Assembly (NCBI GenBank): GCA_945872185.1
Contig: CAMBZX010000008.1
Location: 1-39,248, forward strand
DNA: 39,248 nt
Direction of reading: 5' to 3'
DNA from: Synechococcus sp. UW140
GTDB lineage: Bacteria; Cyanobacteriota; Cyanobacteriia; PCC-6307; Cyanobiaceae
The notes beneath the pieces were generated by a model. The model did not search any database. It was not told where the DNA came from and was given only the letters and a program-made list of their open reading frames with translations. Positions within the stretch are counted from its first letter, which is position 1. Every line of letters starts with the position of its first letter. This document shows positions 9,205 through 16,095 of this stretch, one piece after another. Made by a program: the position numbers and the translations under genes.

Positions 9205-10728
9205 TCAGGCGGCAAGCCGGGCCAGTTTGTCCTTGAGGTGGGTGAGGAAGGCCTCGGCGCTGAGCGGCCGGCCCGTAACCTGAGCCACCAGCTGCTCCGC
9301 ATTAACCCTGCGGCCCAGAGACCAGACGTTGCGCCCCAGCCAGGCCAGGATTTCTGCTTCGTTGCCCGTGGCGATCAGCGTCTCAATCGGCCCCAGTTCG
9401 GCGGCCAGCGCTTCGCTCAGCTGGGCGCTGATCAGGTGCCCAAGGGCATAGGAGGGGAAGTAGCCGAAGAGGCCTTCACTCCAATGCACATCCTGAAGAC
9501 AGCCCTCGGCATCATGGCCCGGACGCAGCCCGAGCAACTGCTCCATGCCGCGGTTCCACCGTTCTGGCAGCTCCGCCACCGGCAGGCCCTGCTCGAGCAG
9601 TTCCAGCTCCAGCTCAAAGCGCAGCACGATGTGCAGGCAGTAGCTCAGTTCATCGGCCTCCACCCGCGTCAGGCCGGCCTGCATCGGATTGAGACCGCGC
9701 CAGAAGCGCCGACCATCGCCCCAGGAATCGCGACCCAGGGCTGAGCAGAAGCGGGGATACCAGCGCTGCGCGAAGGCGGCGCTTCTGCCCAGCCGGCATT
9801 CAAAGAAGAGGCTCTGGCTCTCATGGACCCCCATGGAGGTGGCCTCGCCAAGGGGCCAGGGGAAGAAGTGATCGCCACCGCGGGGCAGACCTTGCTCATA
9901 AAGAGAGTGGCCCCACTCGTGGGCCGTGGCCAGGAAAGCCGAAAAGGGACTCCCGGCCACGATGCGGGTGGTGATGCGGAAATCGGCCGGACCGATGGTG
10001 CTCGAGAAGGGATGGGGTGAACGGGAGCGCTGGCAACGGCTGGCGTCATAGCCCCATTGCTGCAGCAGCTCCTGGCAGAGCTGGTCCTGAACCGCTTCGT
10101 CCAGATCCCAGTCGGCAGGGGGCAACGGTGGCAGGGCAGCGGCCTGCTCCAGCAGCAGCGGCAGCTGCTCACGCAGCGGCTGGAATAGCTCTTGCAGACG
10201 CTGCTTGCTGATGTCCGGCTCAAACCCCTGGGCCAGGGTCTCCCAACAGCTGCGCGGCTCCGCCAGTTGCCGCGCCTGCTCCTGGCGCAGGCTCACCAGT
10301 TCCGCCAAAGCCGGGGAGAAGAGGCCATAGTTACGGGCCGCCTTGGCCTGTTGCCAGAGCGCGTAACCCCGGGCCTGGGCCTCAGCGATCCGGCCCACCA
10401 ACACCGGATCAAGCCGCTGCTGCCGTTCCAGCTCCTGCCGCAACAGCTCCAGGTTGCGCCTCGCGGCCGGCTCCGCCGCTGGACTCAGTTCTGATTCGGC
10501 TGCAGCCACCAGCTCGCTGTATTCAAGGCAGCTCTGCCGCCCATGCAGCTGCCGGGCCAGCAAGGCCAGCTGCTCACCGCGCCATGGCGCCCCGGCGGCG
10601 GGCATGACGGTGTTCTGGTCGTAATAGAGCGTGCTGTGAATCGAGCCCAACAGTTGGGTGCCATGGAGGTAGGACCGCAGGCGCTCGCGCGCGGAGGACT
10701 GGTCCCGAGAATCCATGGTGGTGTGCAT
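9205..10728 (-). CDS. M32-family metallocarboxypeptidase (carboxypeptidase Taq type)
   Basis: A zinc carboxypeptidase that removes C-terminal residues from peptides in the cytosol. The protein has about 507 residues from the ATG at 10728, and another ATG lies four codons later (10716). The zinc site is HEWGH at 270-274, and the family's second signature HESQS is at 302-306. The N-terminal helical part includes LHGTQLLGSIHSTLYYDQNT, typical of M32. An open frame continues upstream to 10950 but is low quality and overlaps the divergent gene, so it was excluded. The gene is divergent from the secreted HEATH-motif protein, with about 120 bp between them. Confidence 0.93.
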   Translation of the reverse strand: MHTTMDSRDQSSARERLRSYLHGTQLLGSIHSTLYYDQNTVMPAAGAPWRGEQLALLARQLHGRQSCLEYSELVAAAESELSPAAEPAARRNLELLRQELERQQRLDPVLVGRIAEAQARGYALWQQAKAARNYGLFSPALAELVSLRQEQARQLAEPRSCWETLAQGFEPDISKQRLQELFQPLREQLPLLLEQAAALPPLPPADWDLDEAVQDQLCQELLQQWGYDASRCQRSRSPHPFSSTIGPADFRITTRIVAGSPFSAFLATAHEWGHSLYEQGLPRGGDHFFPWPLGEATSMGVHESQSLFFECRLGRSAAFAQRWYPRFCSALGRDSWGDGRRFWRGLNPMQAGLTRVEADELSYCLHIVLRFELELELLEQGLPVAELPERWNRGMEQLLGLRPGHDAEGCLQDVHWSEGLFGYFPSYALGHLISAQLSEALAAELGPIETLIATGNEAEILAWLGRNVWSLGRRVNAEQLVAQVTGRPLSAEAFLTHLKDKLARLAA

Positions 10729-10850
10729 CGCTGCGGGGAGCCTGCCGCAGAAGAGGCTGCCCTGGGGCTGGAGCCGGCAAAGCCGGTGGGTGCGGCAACG
10801 AAGATCGTGGCCAGCACCGCAAACTGAGGCCAGGGTGGGGATGGTTGCCG

Positions 10851-11393
10851 ATGCCGGAGATGGCCGTGTCGATGTTGGGTGCCGCGACCCAGCTGCTGGC
10901 GATTGCTCTGCTGGGGTTGTCCCTGCTGAACCCGCCGGGCAGGGCTTCAAGCCTGGACGATATTCGCAGACTCGAAAACCTGATCAACGCCAGCGGCAGC
11001 GAAACGGTGGTGTCTGCCCAATGCCCCCCAGAGCACGCCGGCTATTACGAGAACGATGGCAAAGGGATCGACCGGCTGGTGATCTGCAGGCGTAATGTCG
11101 ATCTGGGCGATCTCGAGGCCGTGTGGGAGGTGATGGCCCACGAAGCCACCCACATCATGCAGTCCTGCACGGGCACCAGCGCCATCGCCGATGAACTGAT
11201 GCCTCGCACCTACCGGGAACTGCAGACGCTGGCACCCCACTACGCGAAGTTGCTGGGAACGCGCTATCGCAGTGCCGACCAGCGGCTGGAAGCGGAGGCC
11301 TTCTGGATGGAGCTGCAGACGCCGGAGCTGGTGCTGGCCCTATTTCGCAAAAACTGTGCGCGCTTCCTGGAGCGCAATGGGCACTCCCGTTGA
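10851..11393 (+). CDS. Exported protein with HEATH (HExxH) motif, putative metallopeptidase
   Basis: A protein of about 180 residues with an N-terminal hydrophobic signal (LGAATQLLAIALLGLSLLN), so probably periplasmic or membrane-anchored. The mature part has Cys58, Cys79, Cys106 and Cys169, which could form disulfides. The sequence VWEVMAHEATHIMQSC carries an HExxH zinc motif at 97-101. Downstream RLEAEAFWMEL offers a Glu (148 or 150) as a possible third ligand, as in gluzincins. Possible starts are TTG 10845, ATG 10851 and ATG 10860; ATG 10851 follows a G-rich stretch. I do not recognise a named family. The peptidase call is inference from the motif. Confidence 0.7.
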   Translation: MPEMAVSMLGAATQLLAIALLGLSLLNPPGRASSLDDIRRLENLINASGSETVVSAQCPPEHAGYYENDGKGIDRLVICRRNVDLGDLEAVWEVMAHEATHIMQSCTGTSAIADELMPRTYRELQTLAPHYAKLLGTRYRSADQRLEAEAFWMELQTPELVLALFRKNCARFLERNGHSR

Positions 11394-11982
11394 AGAAAAT
11401 GCAAGCCCTGATTCATGGGCTGCCTCCTGGGGCCAACCAGGCAGCAATGCCGCAACAAGTGAGCTGCTTGTACAGAAAGAGGGACTGAGCCACCGACAGA
11501 AATGGCAATGAGATGCCACGACGATATCTACAGAATAATGCCGATTCGGCGCACAAAGAATTGGAGATTCCGGCCCATCCTTTGCCAAGGCAGGGAGTGA
11601 ATCTCAAGAGCGAGATCGAGCAGAATTCAAGCGATTCGGACTGGCATCCAACACGGACCGATGCCTTCGAAGATTTGCCGGAGCGCCGAAGAGCCTCAAC
11701 CAGCAGTAGAGATCCAATCAGCCCGTTGTATCCCCAATAGTGCGGGAAGCTTCCGTAGAACTCAATGGCAAAATCAGGCGATCCAGGCAAACACAAGATC
11801 TTGGCCAACACCAGATCGCTCCCCATGGAGCGACATTGATGAACCGAGAATCAGCACAACTAACCAGGTGACGGGATGCACCGACCCGGCAGGAACGGAC
11901 AGCAACAAGCGAACAGACCAGCAGCCGACCCAGGACCCAGCAGCTCCTGCCCCCCAGAGTCGCTAAAACTAGTGACATCAGC
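11394..11982. other. AT-richer non-coding stretch before the orthocaspase terminator
   Basis: About 590 bases with visibly lower GC than the surrounding genes. No frame on the forward strand looks real. On the reverse strand, hydrophobic peptide-like segments appear in more than one frame (for example GSFPHYWGYNGLIGSLLLVE near 11700), with stops between them. This may be a decayed membrane-protein gene. No RNA gene was recognised. Confidence 0.4.
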
Positions 11983-12016
11983 AAAAGTATCGCCTTATTA
12001 GCGAACAAGGCGATAC
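11983..12016 (-). terminator. Intrinsic terminator of the orthocaspase gene
   Basis: On the reverse strand, GTATCGCCTT pairs perfectly with AAGGCGATAC (10-bp stem, 10-nt loop) and is followed at once by TTTT. It starts 33 nt after the orthocaspase stop codon. Position, stem and T-run all fit a Rho-independent terminator. Confidence 0.8.
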
Positions 12017-12036
12017 AACACATTAATGACTAAATT

Positions 12037-12050
12037 ATCAGTTGCTGATT
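12037..12050. repeat. Left copy of a 14-bp inverted repeat flanking the orthocaspase gene
   Basis: ATCAGTTGCTGATT here is the exact reverse complement of AATCAGCAACTGAT at 13394-13407. The copy includes two bases of the orthocaspase stop codon. It is also partly self-complementary (ATCAG/CTGAT). Confidence 0.5.
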
Positions 12051-12909
12051 AAGTGAAAACCCTCTCGGAAAGAGAAGTCTTGGTTCCTTCCAGCTGCGGA
12101 ACTTGAGCATATCCCATACCCCTCACATTCACCGTGACCTGGGCATCCAGTCGGAGACGGGTAATCGCCGGCCCGGCCCCTCTCAACACTTTACAAAAAT
12201 TATAGGTGAAAACACCACGGTAGATGCCACCAATCAGGGCCTCAGCGGATGTCTGGTTGTCGCGGCAGCCTGCCCACAACACATGGTTGAGACGATCCAC
12301 AACGACAGGAGTTCTGGCACGATCATCTGCCTCGGGCCGCAGAATGCCCCTCACAGGCAGCGAGGGATTGGCGTCCAGGAAAAATCCCCAATCAATCGGT
12401 GGCTCAATAAAACGATAAGCAACAGAACCTGAATCCGACGTTGCCGCCATCGCCGCCAACTCGCGAGTTCCGGTGCCAGAGTGACAAGAATCAAGAATGA
12501 TATCCAGATTCACTCCTGCCGGCAAACCAGCCAACAACGTCCGGAAGTCATCGTCTTTGATCATGCCAGCGGTGGCGTAATCATGGGGGCAAATTGTTTC
12601 ATCTTTTGCATCGAGTTCATCCCCGCCCACATCCGCCATCTGCGAGCCATGCCCCGAGTAGTGAAAAACGAGAACATCGCCTTTCTTTGCATCGGCAATC
12701 AACCATTTGACCCCCCTGAGAATCGCAGCCCTTGTTGCCCTCGAATCCGTGAGAATCTGCATGGTTGCAGGAGCCGCCGGCACGATACCAAGAGCACTGA
12801 GGGTATTGGCCATGTCACGGACATCATTCACACAGCCGCGCAAGTCTGGACCGCCAGGGCCAGCAGGGGCATAATCATTGATCCCAACAAGAAGCGCTTT
12901 CTTGGCCAT
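12049..12909 (-). CDS. Orthocaspase (type I metacaspase-like, peptidase C14)
   Basis: A caspase-fold cysteine protease, predicted to cleave after basic residues. The family is linked to stress responses and cell death in cyanobacteria. The protein has 286 residues and begins MAKKALLVGINDYAP. The catalytic His87 lies in FHYSGHGSQ and Cys142 in ILDSCHSGTG. The acidic S1-pocket segment GGDELDAKDETICPHD is at 95-110, and GGIYRGVFTYNF at 227-238 is a typical late p20/p10 feature. There is no signal peptide or extra domain. ATG 12909 was chosen over upstream in-frame codons because a GGAG lies 9 nt before it. The gene stands alone with its own candidate promoter and terminator in an AT-richer segment, which suggests accessory or transferred DNA. 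Confidence 0.92.
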   Translation of the reverse strand: MAKKALLVGINDYAPAGPGGPDLRGCVNDVRDMANTLSALGIVPAAPATMQILTDSRATRAAILRGVKWLIADAKKGDVLVFHYSGHGSQMADVGGDELDAKDETICPHDYATAGMIKDDDFRTLLAGLPAGVNLDIILDSCHSGTGTRELAAMAATSDSGSVAYRFIEPPIDWGFFLDANPSLPVRGILRPEADDRARTPVVVDRLNHVLWAGCRDNQTSAEALIGGIYRGVFTYNFCKVLRGAGPAITRLRLDAQVTVNVRGMGYAQVPQLEGTKTSLSERVFT

Positions 12910-12931
12910 GATACCAATCTCCATTAATTGA

Positions 12932-12958
12932 ATTAAAATGAACAAATCCAAAAGTCAA
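12932..12958 (-). promoter_or_regulatory. Candidate sigma-70 promoter of the orthocaspase gene
   Basis: On the reverse strand, TTGACT (12958-12953) is a near-consensus -35 and TTTAAT (12937-12932) a near-consensus -10. The 15-nt spacer is short. The -10 lies about 22 nt before the chosen ATG, leaving room for the GGAG ribosome site at 12922-12919. Confidence 0.45.
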
Positions 12959-13483
12959 GCAGCGGTAAAATCGCGCAAAAGCAATCCGCCTGACGCTCTA
13001 ACAGAAAGATAAGATTTCACCTCCAATATATGAAGCACCAACCTAACGACACAACGACAACCCACCAACTGGCATGCCATAAATGCTGCAATGGCGAAGC
13101 CATTGAGATGTCGCCCTTAAAATAATCCTTGAGGGAGCGAATAAGCACCCAGGAGAAAGACCCTCTCCCTTCAGTCACCATTCATGCCAACAGTCCTTTT
13201 CTCGCCCGCCCGCTCCCTGGCCCCACCGCTGCCGGTATCACTGACCGCCAGGGCCTCAATGAGGCCCCACCACCACCGATGACCGATGGGGACGGACAGG
13301 AGCCAGAAGCGCCGCTGGTGGCCGCACAACGGCTGGGCCCGAACAGAGGCTGAGCCCAGGAGCCACCAAGAAAGTTCGTCGCGAACCCGTGAAAATCAGC
13401 AACTGATCGCCAGCCCGCAGCAGGCCTGATGAGCAGACAGCAGCCGCAGCGCCGCGGTCTAGCCAGGCGCAGCTGACAGCAGC
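12959..13483. other. Gene-free stretch upstream of the orthocaspase
   Basis: About 525 bases between the orthocaspase and the end of ycf46. The first 170 bases are AT-rich; GC rises again after about 13150. A frame at 13129-13353 is Pro-rich and unconvincing. A perfect stem GGGCCTC/GAGGCCC with a 3-nt loop lies at 13251-13267, without a T-run. The right copy of the 14-bp inverted repeat is at 13394. No gene or RNA recognised. Confidence 0.45.
13394..13407. repeat. Right copy of the 14-bp inverted repeat
   Basis: AATCAGCAACTGAT, the exact reverse complement of 12037-12050. The two copies bracket about 1.37 kb containing only the orthocaspase gene and its upstream region. Confidence 0.5.
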
Positions 13484-14998
13484 TCAGACGGCTTGAACCC
13501 CAGAGCGCCCTGAGGCCAGCCGGGCCCGGCCACTGGAGGCCCAGGTGCGCAGGGCATCGAGTTGTTCGCGGGCGGTGCGGCTCAGGGGCACCACCTGGCT
13601 GGCGGCGGTGATCAGGTCCGCCTCGCCCAGCTCGCGGCCTTCGCCGAAAGCCAGATGCATCGCTTCGATCACCGTCTGCTCCAGCTCGGCGCCGGAGAAG
13701 CCTTCGGTGCGATCCACCAGCACCTCGAGCGGCAGCGTGTGGGCCGGCCGGCGGCGGCGCAATTGCAGATCCAGAATCGCCCGGCGTTCGCCGCCATCCG
13801 GAAGCTCCAGCAGGAAAATCTCATCGAAGCGGCCTTTGCGCAGCAGCTCCGCCGGCAGCCGTTCCACCGCGTTGGCGGTGGCCACCACGAACACGGCACT
13901 GGTCTTTTCCGCCATCCAGGTGAGCACCGTGCCCAGCACCCGCTGGCTGGTGCCGCCATCGCCTCCCCCCGAACCGGAGGCGCCGGCGAAGCCGAAACCC
14001 TTATCGATCTCATCGATCCAGAGCACGCACGGGGCCATCGCCTCGGCCCGCTGGATCATTTCGCGGCTGCGCGCCTCACTGGCCCCCACCAGCCCGGCGA
14101 ACAGGCGCCCCACATCCAGCCGCAACAAGGGCATACCCCAGCTGTGGGCGATCGCCTTGGCGGTGAGGCTCTTGCCGGTGCCCTGGGGCCCCACCAGCAG
14201 CACCCCCCGCGGCACGGGCAGCCCATAGCGCTGGGCCTCCTCGCTGAAGGCCCGATGCCGTTGCTCCAGCCAGTGCTTGAGCGCCTCCAGGCCGCCGATA
14301 TCCGCCGGGGTGGCCTCGCTGGGGCAGTACTCCAGCAGCTCACTGCGGGCGATCGCCTGACGCTTCTCCTCGAGCACCTCGGCCAGGTCTTCGGCCCCCA
14401 GCTGCCCGCGGCGGGCCAGGGCCCGGGCCGCCAGCTGCCGCACCCGCTGCTCACTGAGGCCATGGCAGGCGGCGGTGAGCTGCTCCAGCACCTCCGCCTG
14501 CAGCGGCCGGCCCCCGGCCACGGCGATCGAGCCCAGCAGGGCACCGATCTCAGCCGCCTCCGGCAGGGGCAGCTCCAGCATCGTGATGCAGTCCTCCAAC
14601 TCCCGCGGCAGGCGCCAGTCCGGCGCGCTGATCACCAGGGTGTGGGGCACCAGCGGCAAGGAGGCGGCCAGGTTGCGCAAGCGGCGGCAGATCCCCGGAT
14701 CCTCGCCGTAGCGGTGGAAGTCCTTGAGCAGCAGAATCGCCCCCTGCTCGGCCGGCACCGCCGCCAGGGCCTCCAAGGCGGCCATCGGATTGCGCGCCGC
14801 CTCCCCCTGGCGATTGGCACTGCCGCTGAGCCCCGCCACAAAATCCCAGCGCAGCAACAGCCGCCCCCCCAGACGTCGGGCGGCCTGCTCCAGCAGGGTT
14901 TCGACCCGCTGCTCCTCCAGGCTGCGAATCCAGAGGATCGGCGTGCGCGAGCGGATCAGCAGATCCAGCTGGTCAACCAGGGGGGTGGAATGGGCCAT
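13484..14998 (-). CDS. ycf46: Ycf46-type AAA ATPase
   Basis: A 504-residue AAA+ ATPase matching the Ycf46 family found in cyanobacteria and some plastids. It begins MAHSTPLVDQLDLLIRSRTP, a typical Ycf46 start. Residues 1-220 form an inactive-looking first half (GAILLLKDFHRYGED). The active AAA domain follows, with Walker A GPQGTGKS at 270-277 and Walker B VLWIDEID at 325-332. The arginine-finger region is LLRKGRFDE at 385-393. No membrane segment is seen. The start lies 5 nt after the yceD stop, so it is likely the last gene of the rpmH-yidC operon. Cyanobacterial Ycf46 has been linked to photosynthesis regulation and CO2 use; the client of this one is not evident from sequence. Confidence 0.92.
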   Translation of the reverse strand: MAHSTPLVDQLDLLIRSRTPILWIRSLEEQRVETLLEQAARRLGGRLLLRWDFVAGLSGSANRQGEAARNPMAALEALAAVPAEQGAILLLKDFHRYGEDPGICRRLRNLAASLPLVPHTLVISAPDWRLPRELEDCITMLELPLPEAAEIGALLGSIAVAGGRPLQAEVLEQLTAACHGLSEQRVRQLAARALARRGQLGAEDLAEVLEEKRQAIARSELLEYCPSEATPADIGGLEALKHWLEQRHRAFSEEAQRYGLPVPRGVLLVGPQGTGKSLTAKAIAHSWGMPLLRLDVGRLFAGLVGASEARSREMIQRAEAMAPCVLWIDEIDKGFGFAGASGSGGGDGGTSQRVLGTVLTWMAEKTSAVFVVATANAVERLPAELLRKGRFDEIFLLELPDGGERRAILDLQLRRRRPAHTLPLEVLVDRTEGFSGAELEQTVIEAMHLAFGEGRELGEADLITAASQVVPLSRTAREQLDALRTWASSGRARLASGRSGVQAV

Positions 14999-15003
14999 CG
15001 GCT

Positions 15004-16095
15004 TCAGGGCAGCAGCTGGCGCAGGGCCGCCCAGCGCGGATCGATCGGGGTCTGGGAGGGGCGAGGGTCGCCCCCGGATTCGCCGCGGCTGCCCTTGGTG
15101 GCCGCGCAGCCGGCCGGGAGCTTGGTGGCGTCGGGGGTGCCATCGACGGGGCTGGAGGTGTGGGCGCAGCCAGAGCCTTCGGAAGCGTCCAAAGCGACCC
15201 GTTGACCAGTCGGAGCCGGCGCCGGGGCGCGGCGGTCCTCGACATGGACGGCCTTGGGCTGGTTGGCTCTGGGCCTGGCTGCGCTGCCGTTCGCATTGGC
15301 CCCAGGCGAGGCCGGCCAATCCCCCAGGGGCAGTTGCGGTGGCCGTGGCAGTGGCAGTGGCGGGCCGGGGCAGTCGGCGCCACAGCGATTCACCACCGGC
15401 AGCTGCAAGCTGAGCTGCTCGAACAGCCAGCGCTCCGGATCAAAATCACCGCGCGGATCGAGGCGATCGTCGAGGACCTCGATCAGCAGCGGCTCCGGCT
15501 GGCTCCTGGAACGCGAGCCGCGGCGAGCCTGGCTGCCGGGGTTGGCGGCGTTGCCGGAACTGAGGCCATTGCCAGGACGGGATGCGTTGCCGGAACCGGG
15601 GGCCTGGCCCTGGCCCGAGGAGCGGCTGGAGGACAGGTCGCTGCCGGCTGCGGCGTTCTGCAGCCCCCGATCGCGCCCGGCGGCTGGGGGCCGGCCAGCA
15701 GCACGCCCGCCGTGGCCACTGGAGCCGGAGGCCCCTGAACCCGACCCCGTTGGCCTGAAACGAGCCCTTGGGGCGCCTGTGCCCGCCGCGCTGCCGGCCA
15801 TGGCCGTCAGATCGGAGCCCTCCAGCTCCAGAAGTTCATGCACCAAGGCCCTTAAGGGCCTGTTGAAGTGCTGCAGGCAGCGGTCACAGCAGACCGTGAC
15901 GATCGTTTCGGCCATGCCCTCCACCTCCAGCACGCTGCCGTGGTGCTGGGCTCTCACGTGGCCCCGCACCGGCGTCAGGCTGTCGAGGTCAGCGAGTTTC
16001 TGATCCACCGCCCACATCAGGGGATCGGCCCGCAGGCGCAGTTCCTGCAGGGGCACAGGCCGCAGCAGGGAGATGCCGCCGGCCTCCGGGTTCAC
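15004..16095 (-). CDS. YceD/DUF177 family protein with long low-complexity insertions
   Basis: DUF177 proteins affect 23S rRNA or L32/fatty-acid gene expression in other bacteria, and the chloroplast homologue aids 23S rRNA maturation. The family is usually 150-190 residues; this one has 363. Conserved blocks are separated. Residues 1-97 hold [14 protein letters not shown] and [20 protein letters not shown]. Residues 200-245 hold [13 protein letters not shown] and [20 protein letters not shown]. Residues 349-363 end [13 protein letters not shown]. Between them lie about 100 residues rich in Ser/Gly/Arg/Ala (98-199) and about 100 rich in Pro/Ala (246-348). The start is GTG at 16095, overlapping the yidC stop (GTGA). 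A distant upstream start is excluded because it lies inside yidC. Confidence 0.85.

Follow-up and report, generated by a model that had tools for sequence, protein, structure and literature searches.

How did a small freshwater cyanobacterium come by a lone gene for a caspase-like protease, and what would such an enzyme do there? The question is raised by a contig of Synechococcus sp. UW140 (CAMBZX010000008.1 of assembly GCA_945872185.1), whose whole analysed length of 39,248 nucleotides is called the window here, and in which a gene for a protein of 286 amino acids stands alone between ycf46 and a pair formed by a hypothetical open reading frame and the gene of an M32 carboxypeptidase. The original prediction, made from the DNA letters, described it as a solitary and recently acquired orthocaspase with its own promoter and terminator. 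We show below that the product is a metacaspase with both a p20 and a p10 domain, and we consider the gene to be best explained, with a probability of about 0.72, as a free-standing stress metacaspase specific for Arg/Lys that four related freshwater species acquired from another phylum.

Protein Class and Fold

The open reading frame (ORF) is complete, starting with the ATG at 12909, and matches Pfam PF00656 (Peptidase_C14) with an E value of 2.4e-35 (122.8 bits against a curated cut-off of 21.4). The reading of it as a complete caspase-fold protease with the catalytic residues His87 and Cys142 was confirmed by the ORF, the Pfam match, and the residue alignment. It is the sole C14 match found in this draft genome (2.9 Mb, 234 contigs, 86% complete). 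A single-sequence phmmer search of the PDB aligned residues 3–146 with metacaspase p20 domains (E 3.4e-30) and a second, weak stretch (residues 202–275) with the p10 domain of Mca1, while a family profile of 41 rows (the window protein and 40 relatives) aligned residues 3–274 with yeast Mca1 (E 2.6e-48). The AlphaFold2 model has a mean predicted local distance difference test score (pLDDT) of 72.6 and a predicted TM score of 0.77. Ten-residue means of pLDDT in the p20 domain are mostly 80–94, with dips at residues 11–20, 91–100, and 121–130 (63, 66, and 70, respectively); most of residues 145–207, the linker, is poorly predicted, and the C-terminal part is again well predicted, with strands and helices at 210–280. 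Metacaspases were top-ranked in structural comparison with Foldseek and VIA-align 2, with matches spanning residues 1–286: the plant type II enzymes lead (Z 26–30; AtMCA-IIf 29.5), and GSU0716 (Z 24.9) and the fungal type I metacaspases (Z 23–24) follow.

According to a rule given in a passage of PMC6426788, a p20–p10 distance of up to 66 amino acids marks type I and a longer one type II. The distance is about 55 residues here (147–201, taken from the limits of the phmmer alignments and not from the hidden Markov models of that study), and the protein is therefore placed among the bacterial type I metacaspases, having a p20 domain with the His/Cys dyad, a C-terminal p10 domain, and a short linker. 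The presence of p10 was judged by the profile, the model, and the structural matches rather than by the p10 hidden Markov model of PMC6426788. The same three lines of evidence show that the name orthocaspase was wrong in the sense of a protein devoid of p10, which is how a passage of PMC5756287 defines it. The score against NCBIfam NF047832 (caspase, EACC1-associated) was 49.6 bits, below the cut-off of 140.

Residues of the Active Site, the Metal Site, and the Linker

Every row of the 41-row alignment has C26, D29, S85, H87, D140, and C142 wherever it covers these positions: Cys142 is present in all 41 rows and His87 in 40, the remaining row being truncated and showing a gap. C26, D29, S85, and D140 align with the residues that form the S1 pocket of T. 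brucei MCA2 (TbMCA2). One of the pocket residues of TbMCA2, Cys92, is named in a passage of PMC5756287. From these residues we infer that the enzyme would prefer a basic residue (Arg or Lys) at P1. In the copy of the nearest carrier species (G021; L109:7390-8247), the catalytic Cys is followed by Tyr instead of His (DSCYSG).

Three aspartates of the metal site of Candida glabrata MCA-I (CgMCA), namely D198, D214, and D245, have counterparts in that of TbMCA2 (PMC9622860, in part). The first two correspond to D103 and D119, present in all 41 rows, while the position of D245 is occupied by Arg149 in 39 of the 41. Because the third calcium-site aspartate is thus an arginine in this family, control by divalent cations is probably altered. 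Arg166 in the linker is invariant in all 41 rows and is a possible self-processing site.

Acquisition from Another Phylum

Eleven of the 37 genomes of the genus that were searched at the protein level (G000, that of the window, included; G060–G064 set aside) gave a match at E 0.001, and a Pfam C14 gene occurs in 19 of 42 genus genomes. Close copies are found in only four: G000, G021 (96% identical), G032 (91%), and G022, in which the gene is broken (78–79%, two pieces). The other matches within the genus are 27–48% identical and lie in open frames whose lengths run from 258 to 1,074 amino acids, the next by score being in G030 (41% over residues 1–284), while that in G027 reaches 48% over residues 1–163. 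Among 386 sampled species of Cyanobacteriota, G000 alone reached E 1e-40; G021, G032, and G022 would reach this threshold, and are therefore outside that sample.

In contrast to the distant matches in its own genus, the closest relatives of the protein outside the four carriers belong to other phyla. A contig search gave 39 metacaspase loci, 36 of them beyond the four carriers, which are 48–81% identical where aligned: Methylococcaceae, 76–81%; Chlorobiaceae, 69–76%; Burkholderiales and another betaproteobacterium, 72–76%; Gallionellales, 72–74%; NC10, 74%; Desulfobacterota bins, 67–73%; and Nitrosomonadales, 48–49%. One record (L100, CALPNT02), titled Bifidobacterium breve, carries the picocyanobacterial locus and looks mislabelled. 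In a tree of the 41 rows, the three intact copies from cyanobacteria group together (support 100/99) within a 24-row clade (98/99) that also holds 11 Pseudomonadota, 9 Chlorobiota, and 1 member of Thermodesulfobacteriota (Desulfobulbaceae), and the row nearest to them is from Methylococcaceae (83/80).

Base composition agrees with this. The GC content is 0.52–0.57 in 1-kb windows across the metacaspase stretch and 0.60–0.74 in the remaining window, except for the first 1.5 kb (0.58), and the GC content at third codon positions (GC3) of the gene is 0.54, whereas 25 other ORFs of the window, which were picked mechanically and may include a few spurious ones, average 0.795 (standard deviation 0.055, minimum 0.692). 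The solitary position of the gene in an AT-richer stretch was thus correctly described. When each gene was compared with its own flanks, the four cyanobacterial copies showed the largest GC deficits among 40 loci (-0.094 to -0.134), which argues that the cyanobacteria were recipients; 35 of the other 36 loci range from -0.042 to +0.096, and L096 alone falls outside (-0.073). Taken together with the patchy distribution and with the rearrangement junction described below, the tree and the composition strongly support transfer of the gene between phyla, and hence the word "acquired" of the original prediction.

A virus and a plasmid were considered as carriers and rejected. IMG/VR held no stretch matching the peptide patterns used, which are sensitive to close relatives only, and the 199 plasmid records that matched were all below 60% identity. 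A 485-kb record of an uncultured phage (LR745208.1:345844-346608) encodes a relative over 97% of the protein, which, at only 38% identity, is too distant to have been the vehicle.

A Junction of Two Chromosomal Blocks

In G000, G021, and G032, the metacaspase gene lies between ycf46 and the M32 gene, all on one contig; in G022, it shares a short contig with the M32 gene, and ycf46 lies near the end of another. In the other genomes of the genus, ycf46 and M32 were never found on one contig within 300 kb, although genes on separate contigs of a draft may still be close together and the contig of G015 stops about 1 kb past ycf46. The single-contig genomes give a separation of about 0.3 Mb (G020) and 1.2 Mb (G023). 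Beyond ycf46, G011, G016, G027, and G028 have other genes in common, and so do G007, G011, G015, G023, and G028 beyond M32, so that the metacaspase sits at the junction of two blocks. In a tree of YidC, M32, and ClC proteins from 11 species (ClC lacking for G022), the four carriers group in a single clade (98/97), and most simply the junction was made in their ancestor. Gain and rearrangement may have been one event or two.

The features of the locus are listed in Table 1. The metacaspase is the sole gene in about 2.1 kb, between the end of a hypothetical ORF (11393) and that of ycf46 (13484). The claim that the flanking DNA holds no core gene is right for the immediate spacers, which are empty, but misleading, since ycf46 on one side and M32, behind the hypothetical ORF, on the other occur throughout the genus. 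The original prediction was to be refuted by synteny in all close relatives together with core-like codon use. The comparison bears this out by half: the closest relatives have the gene at this position, but most of the genus lacks it, and its codon use does not resemble that of core genes.

Table 1. Positions of the metacaspase gene, its parts, and adjoining features in the window
Feature	Position	Strand	Basis or remark
p20-p10 (type I-like) metacaspase gene, 286 amino acids	12049..12909	-	Pfam, profile, model, and PDB fold matches
p20 catalytic domain, ~residues 1–146	12472..12909	-	phmmer match of 3–146 to metacaspases; model pLDDT
p20–p10 linker, ~residues 147–201, with Arg166	12307..12471	-	Low pLDDT over most of 145–207
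p10-like domain, ~residues 202–286, ending in a conserved VFT tail	12052..12306	-	phmmer, profile, and model
GGAG ribosome-binding site	12919..12922	-	GGAGA conserved in four-species alignment
Terminator-like hairpin, 13-bp stem, then TTTT	11987..12016	-	Folding z, paired change, genus-wide pattern search
Proposed promoter, TTGACT (12958–12953)/TTTAAT (12937–12932), spacer 15	12932..12958	-	Weak
14-bp inverted repeat, arms 12037–12050 and 13394–13407	12037..13407		Perfect arms; judged chance
AAA ATPase of ycf46 type; core gene bordering the junction on one side	13484..15319	-	Pfam AAA and AAA_lid_3, the name ycf46 being that of the original prediction; 40/42 genus genomes
M32 carboxypeptidase, core gene, opposite side of the junction	9205..10950	-	Pfam PF02074, E 1.7e-135; 42/42 genus genomes
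Hypothetical ORF, 182 amino acids, neighbour on the M32 side	10845..11393	+	Contains a HEATH stretch; no Pfam match
Non-coding spacer, hypothetical ORF to hairpin	11394..11986		Long form only in G000 and G021; far shorter in G032
Non-coding spacer, upstream of the metacaspase to ycf46	12910..13483		Far part poorly alignable with G032; G022 contig stops ~220 bp upstream

Selection and Decay

The ratio of non-synonymous to synonymous divergence (dN/dS) is 0.087 between G000 and G021, 0.053 between G000 and G032, and 0.058 between G021 and G032; the protein is therefore constrained, and purifying selection acts on these three copies. The corresponding dS values of the metacaspase gene are 0.24, 0.94, and 0.98, and those of neighbouring genes are 0.08–0.19 for the near pair and 0.29–0.50 for the far pairs (the ycf46 rows of G032, which are out of frame, being excluded). 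Because four species carry the gene and dS rises to about 0.98, the gain was not recent on this scale, and this part of the original prediction was not borne out.

The G022 copy has suffered a deletion of 170 nucleotides that takes the stretch of the catalytic Cys, and further small indels. Its dN/dS is 0.40 against its sister G032, and its 226 aligned codons contain no stop. The break may be an error of the draft assembly.

Several observations weigh against the interpretation that we prefer, or against parts of it. The GC3 of the gene is still near 0.5 despite dS values of 0.94–0.98, so weak codon selection may account for part of the foreign composition. In one of the four species the copy is broken, and the function is therefore dispensable. 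The deeper order within the 24-row clade is mostly unresolved, so the tree does not single out a donor. The methanotrophs, although nearest, are not straightforward in this role: their three copies have a higher GC content than the DNA on either side (+0.053, +0.079, and +0.096), so they may be recipients too; these copies sit on short contigs of metagenome-assembled genomes (3.2–5.2 kb); and in the family of one of them (L066), the gene occurs in 1 of 38 genomes. Prevalence did not point to a donor in either of the two families surveyed, since among 61 genomes of Chlorobiaceae (the family of L067) 5 have the 69–76% form and 21 more have only a 39–45% form. Finally, the highest structural matches of the model are the plant type II enzymes, which does not decide the type of the metacaspase.

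Signals around the Gene

The GGAG ribosome-binding site of the original prediction is present and conserved in the four species, and its terminator, a stem followed by TTTT, corresponds to a terminator-like hairpin that is likewise conserved. The folding z of this hairpin is -5.7 to -6.4 in all four carriers, and the second pair of the stem has changed on both sides, from T-A in G000 and G021 to G-C in G032 and G022. The exact stem pattern was found once per genome in the four carriers and nowhere in the 38 other genus genomes, and the 15 matches among 131 fetched loci were all from carriers. The run of T that follows it is short (TTTT or TTT).

The other two signals fared less well. The words of the proposed promoter are present in G000 and G021, but G032 and G022 do not preserve the -35 word, and a promoter scan limited to spacers of 16–18 did not list this promoter, its spacer being 15. 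When the 300 bp upstream were shuffled, 22 of 500 versions contained a box matching at 10 or more of 12 positions with a spacer of 15–19. The 14-bp inverted repeat that was said to bracket the gene does exist, and perfect arms of this kind arose in only 4 of 500 shuffles, which is unusual by chance alone; both arms are nevertheless changed in G021 and one overlaps the stop codon, and we consider the repeat to be probably a chance feature without meaning. No RNA families (at the gathering threshold) or tRNAs were found in the window.

Neighbouring Genes

Apart from the metacaspase itself, the largest clusters of neighbouring genes at the relatives' loci are each confined to a single phylum (Chlorobiaceae or Gallionellales), and among the 25 largest clusters those crossing phyla, which include an ORF antisense to the metacaspase gene, hold at most three loci. 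As no neighbour is widely shared across phyla, the enzyme looks self-sufficient, and together with the conserved hairpin this supports its description as self-contained. PADLOC matched 39 families in 93 neighbouring ORFs from 28 loci, out of 172 listed; among the matches listed, which cover 25 of the 39 families, only mad3, mad8, and AriA (three ORFs each) and mad2 (two) have more than one, Cas1 and a methyltransferase being among the single matches. A consistent association with defence genes was thus not found, with at most 3 of 93 ORFs per listed family (counts taken without a background rate).

Several neighbours were observed beside individual loci. All nine loci of Chlorobiaceae have a homologous ORF directly upstream of the metacaspase gene, which in L067 (4631-5839) shows leucine-rich repeats and a zinc ribbon by Pfam. 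Papain-family (C1) domains adjoin the metacaspase in L076 (6970-9834) and L081 (5005-5910), and Agglutinin_C does so in L064 (1665-2279), the proteins being different. In the window, the hypothetical ORF of 182 amino acids may encode a metallopeptidase, judging from its HExxH-like HEATH stretch. It also adjoins M32 in G015, G011, G007, and G017, which are nearer relatives, and was not found beside M32 in G016, G028, G023, and G027.

Proposed History and Rival Explanations

We propose that an ancestor of the four freshwater species received a complete metacaspase gene from another phylum, probably from a proteobacterium of the same habitat, the nearest known copies being those of gammaproteobacterial methanotrophs. 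The gene would have become fixed at the junction of the two chromosomal blocks, with ycf46 on one side and the hypothetical/M32 pair on the other, as a free-standing unit consisting of a ribosome site, one coding sequence, and its own terminator-like hairpin, with no evident partner. Its product would be a single-chain Cys/His protease, presumably cytosolic, with cleavage predicted after Arg or Lys, possible maturation by self-cleavage at Arg166, and probably altered control by cations. Its most likely use would be that of a conditionally expressed protease for stress or protein quality. A wider reading is conceivable, although we regard it as doubtful: that this self-sufficient family of single genes is being passed between phyla that come together along redox gradients in fresh water (methanotrophs, Gallionella, green sulfur bacteria, sulfate reducers, and picocyanobacteria), with a metal site rewired by Arg149 and self-cleavage at Arg166 replacing calcium control, and confers a stress or death response linked to this habitat on whichever host acquires it.

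An executioner of cell death or abortive infection, whose triggered cleavage of essential proteins would kill the cell and protect its kin, seems to us unlikely. Cyanobacterial death has been discussed together with caspase homologues (PMC7965980, in part), the distribution of the gene is patchy, and in one Chitinophagales bin (L095:6001-7909) a DNA/RNA non-specific endonuclease follows the metacaspase relative by about 70 bp on the same strand. The generic "caspase" profile of PADLOC also matches the protein (E 2.3e-24), but such a match is expected because the p20 fold is shared; Pfam shows no added sensor or effector domain, and neither the phylum-bound neighbours nor the few repeated PADLOC families among those listed suggest a death module. 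It is improbable that the gene is a neutral passenger on its way out. The active-site deletion, the indels, and the raised dN/dS of G022 would suit such a passenger, whereas the low dN/dS and the kept catalytic residues of G000, G021, and G032 would not, nor would the hairpin kept with a paired change or the stop-free remnant in G022.

The remaining alternatives concern the origin of the locus. Vertical descent of an ancient cyanobacterial gene with massive loss in the genus could explain why 19 of 42 genomes have some C14 gene, but it is very improbable in view of identities of 27–48% for the other matches within the genus against up to 81% in other phyla, and of the nesting in the tree, the composition, and the rearrangement junction. 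A mobile cassette bounded by the inverted repeat, which the perfect arms, seldom matched in shuffles, had suggested, is slightly less credible still and already largely refuted: terminal repeats of a transposable cassette should be conserved, and those seen here are altered in G021, which shares the insertion, one of them running into the stop codon; moreover, the ten window ORFs scanned with Pfam include no transposase or integrase. We therefore rejected it. Least of all do we believe in an artefact of assembly or binning. The four carriers are all drafts (about 170 to 570 contigs) and the single-contig genomes G020 and G023 do not have the gene, yet core genes flank it on both sides on one contig in G000, G021, and G032, and two of these three assemblies come from differently named samples (Lac Pavin and Loc090519-5m). 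Transfer from another phylum, followed by retention as a free-standing protease, thus remains our preferred explanation.

Significance

The protease belongs to a known kind, but its lineage was thought to lack caspase homologues. Passages of PMC3501461, PMC5756287, and PMC6426788 report none in Cyanobium and its (marine) relatives, and among the titles listed in our literature searches none concerned a type I metacaspase in picocyanobacteria or this subfamily. Horizontal transfer of prokaryotic caspase homologues has already been proposed (PMC3501461, PMC5756287, PMC6426788, and PMC8283722, each in part), and a passage of PMC6426788 suggests it for the cyanobacterial type I metacaspases. We think that the genus in question is Cyanobium. 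If so, C14 genes occur in 19 of its 42 genomes, and a p20-p10 metacaspase from another phylum is, or once was, present in four; this would weaken the view that small unicellular cyanobacteria simply lost their caspase homologues by streamlining. Three intact copies, one broken copy, and sister species without the gene also make up a natural series of gain and loss for asking what a lone bacterial metacaspase does.

Comparison with Known Metacaspases and Orthocaspases

The window protein shares with the type I metacaspases (yeast Mca1/Yca1, C. glabrata MCA-I, and T. brucei MCA2) a p20 followed by a p10 domain in a single chain, the His/Cys dyad, the Cys and acidic residues of the S1 pocket, and two of the three conserved calcium-site aspartates (D103 and D119) plus D120. 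It differs from them in the absence of an N-terminal prodomain, in having Arg149 in place of the third calcium-site aspartate (D220 in TbMCA2), and in a linker in which, besides the invariant Arg166, Pro170-Pro171 is nearly invariant. The bacterial type I metacaspases are, like it, prokaryotic p20-p10 proteins with a short linker, and a passage of PMC6426788 counts 1,121 p10-bearing bacterial sequences; the cyanobacterial ones described there come from filamentous genera only, and none with p20 from Cyanobium. MaOC1, an orthocaspase in the strict sense, is likewise a prokaryotic C14 protease for which basic P1 specificity is expected, but proteins of its type have no p10 (PMC5756287, in part), whereas the window protein has one. 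GSU0716 of Geobacter sulfurreducens (PDB 3bij) shares the caspase fold and a similar length and is matched by the family profile at E 3.4e-36; it is a structural-genomics entry named "uncharacterized protein" and is 29% identical to the window protein in the structural alignment.

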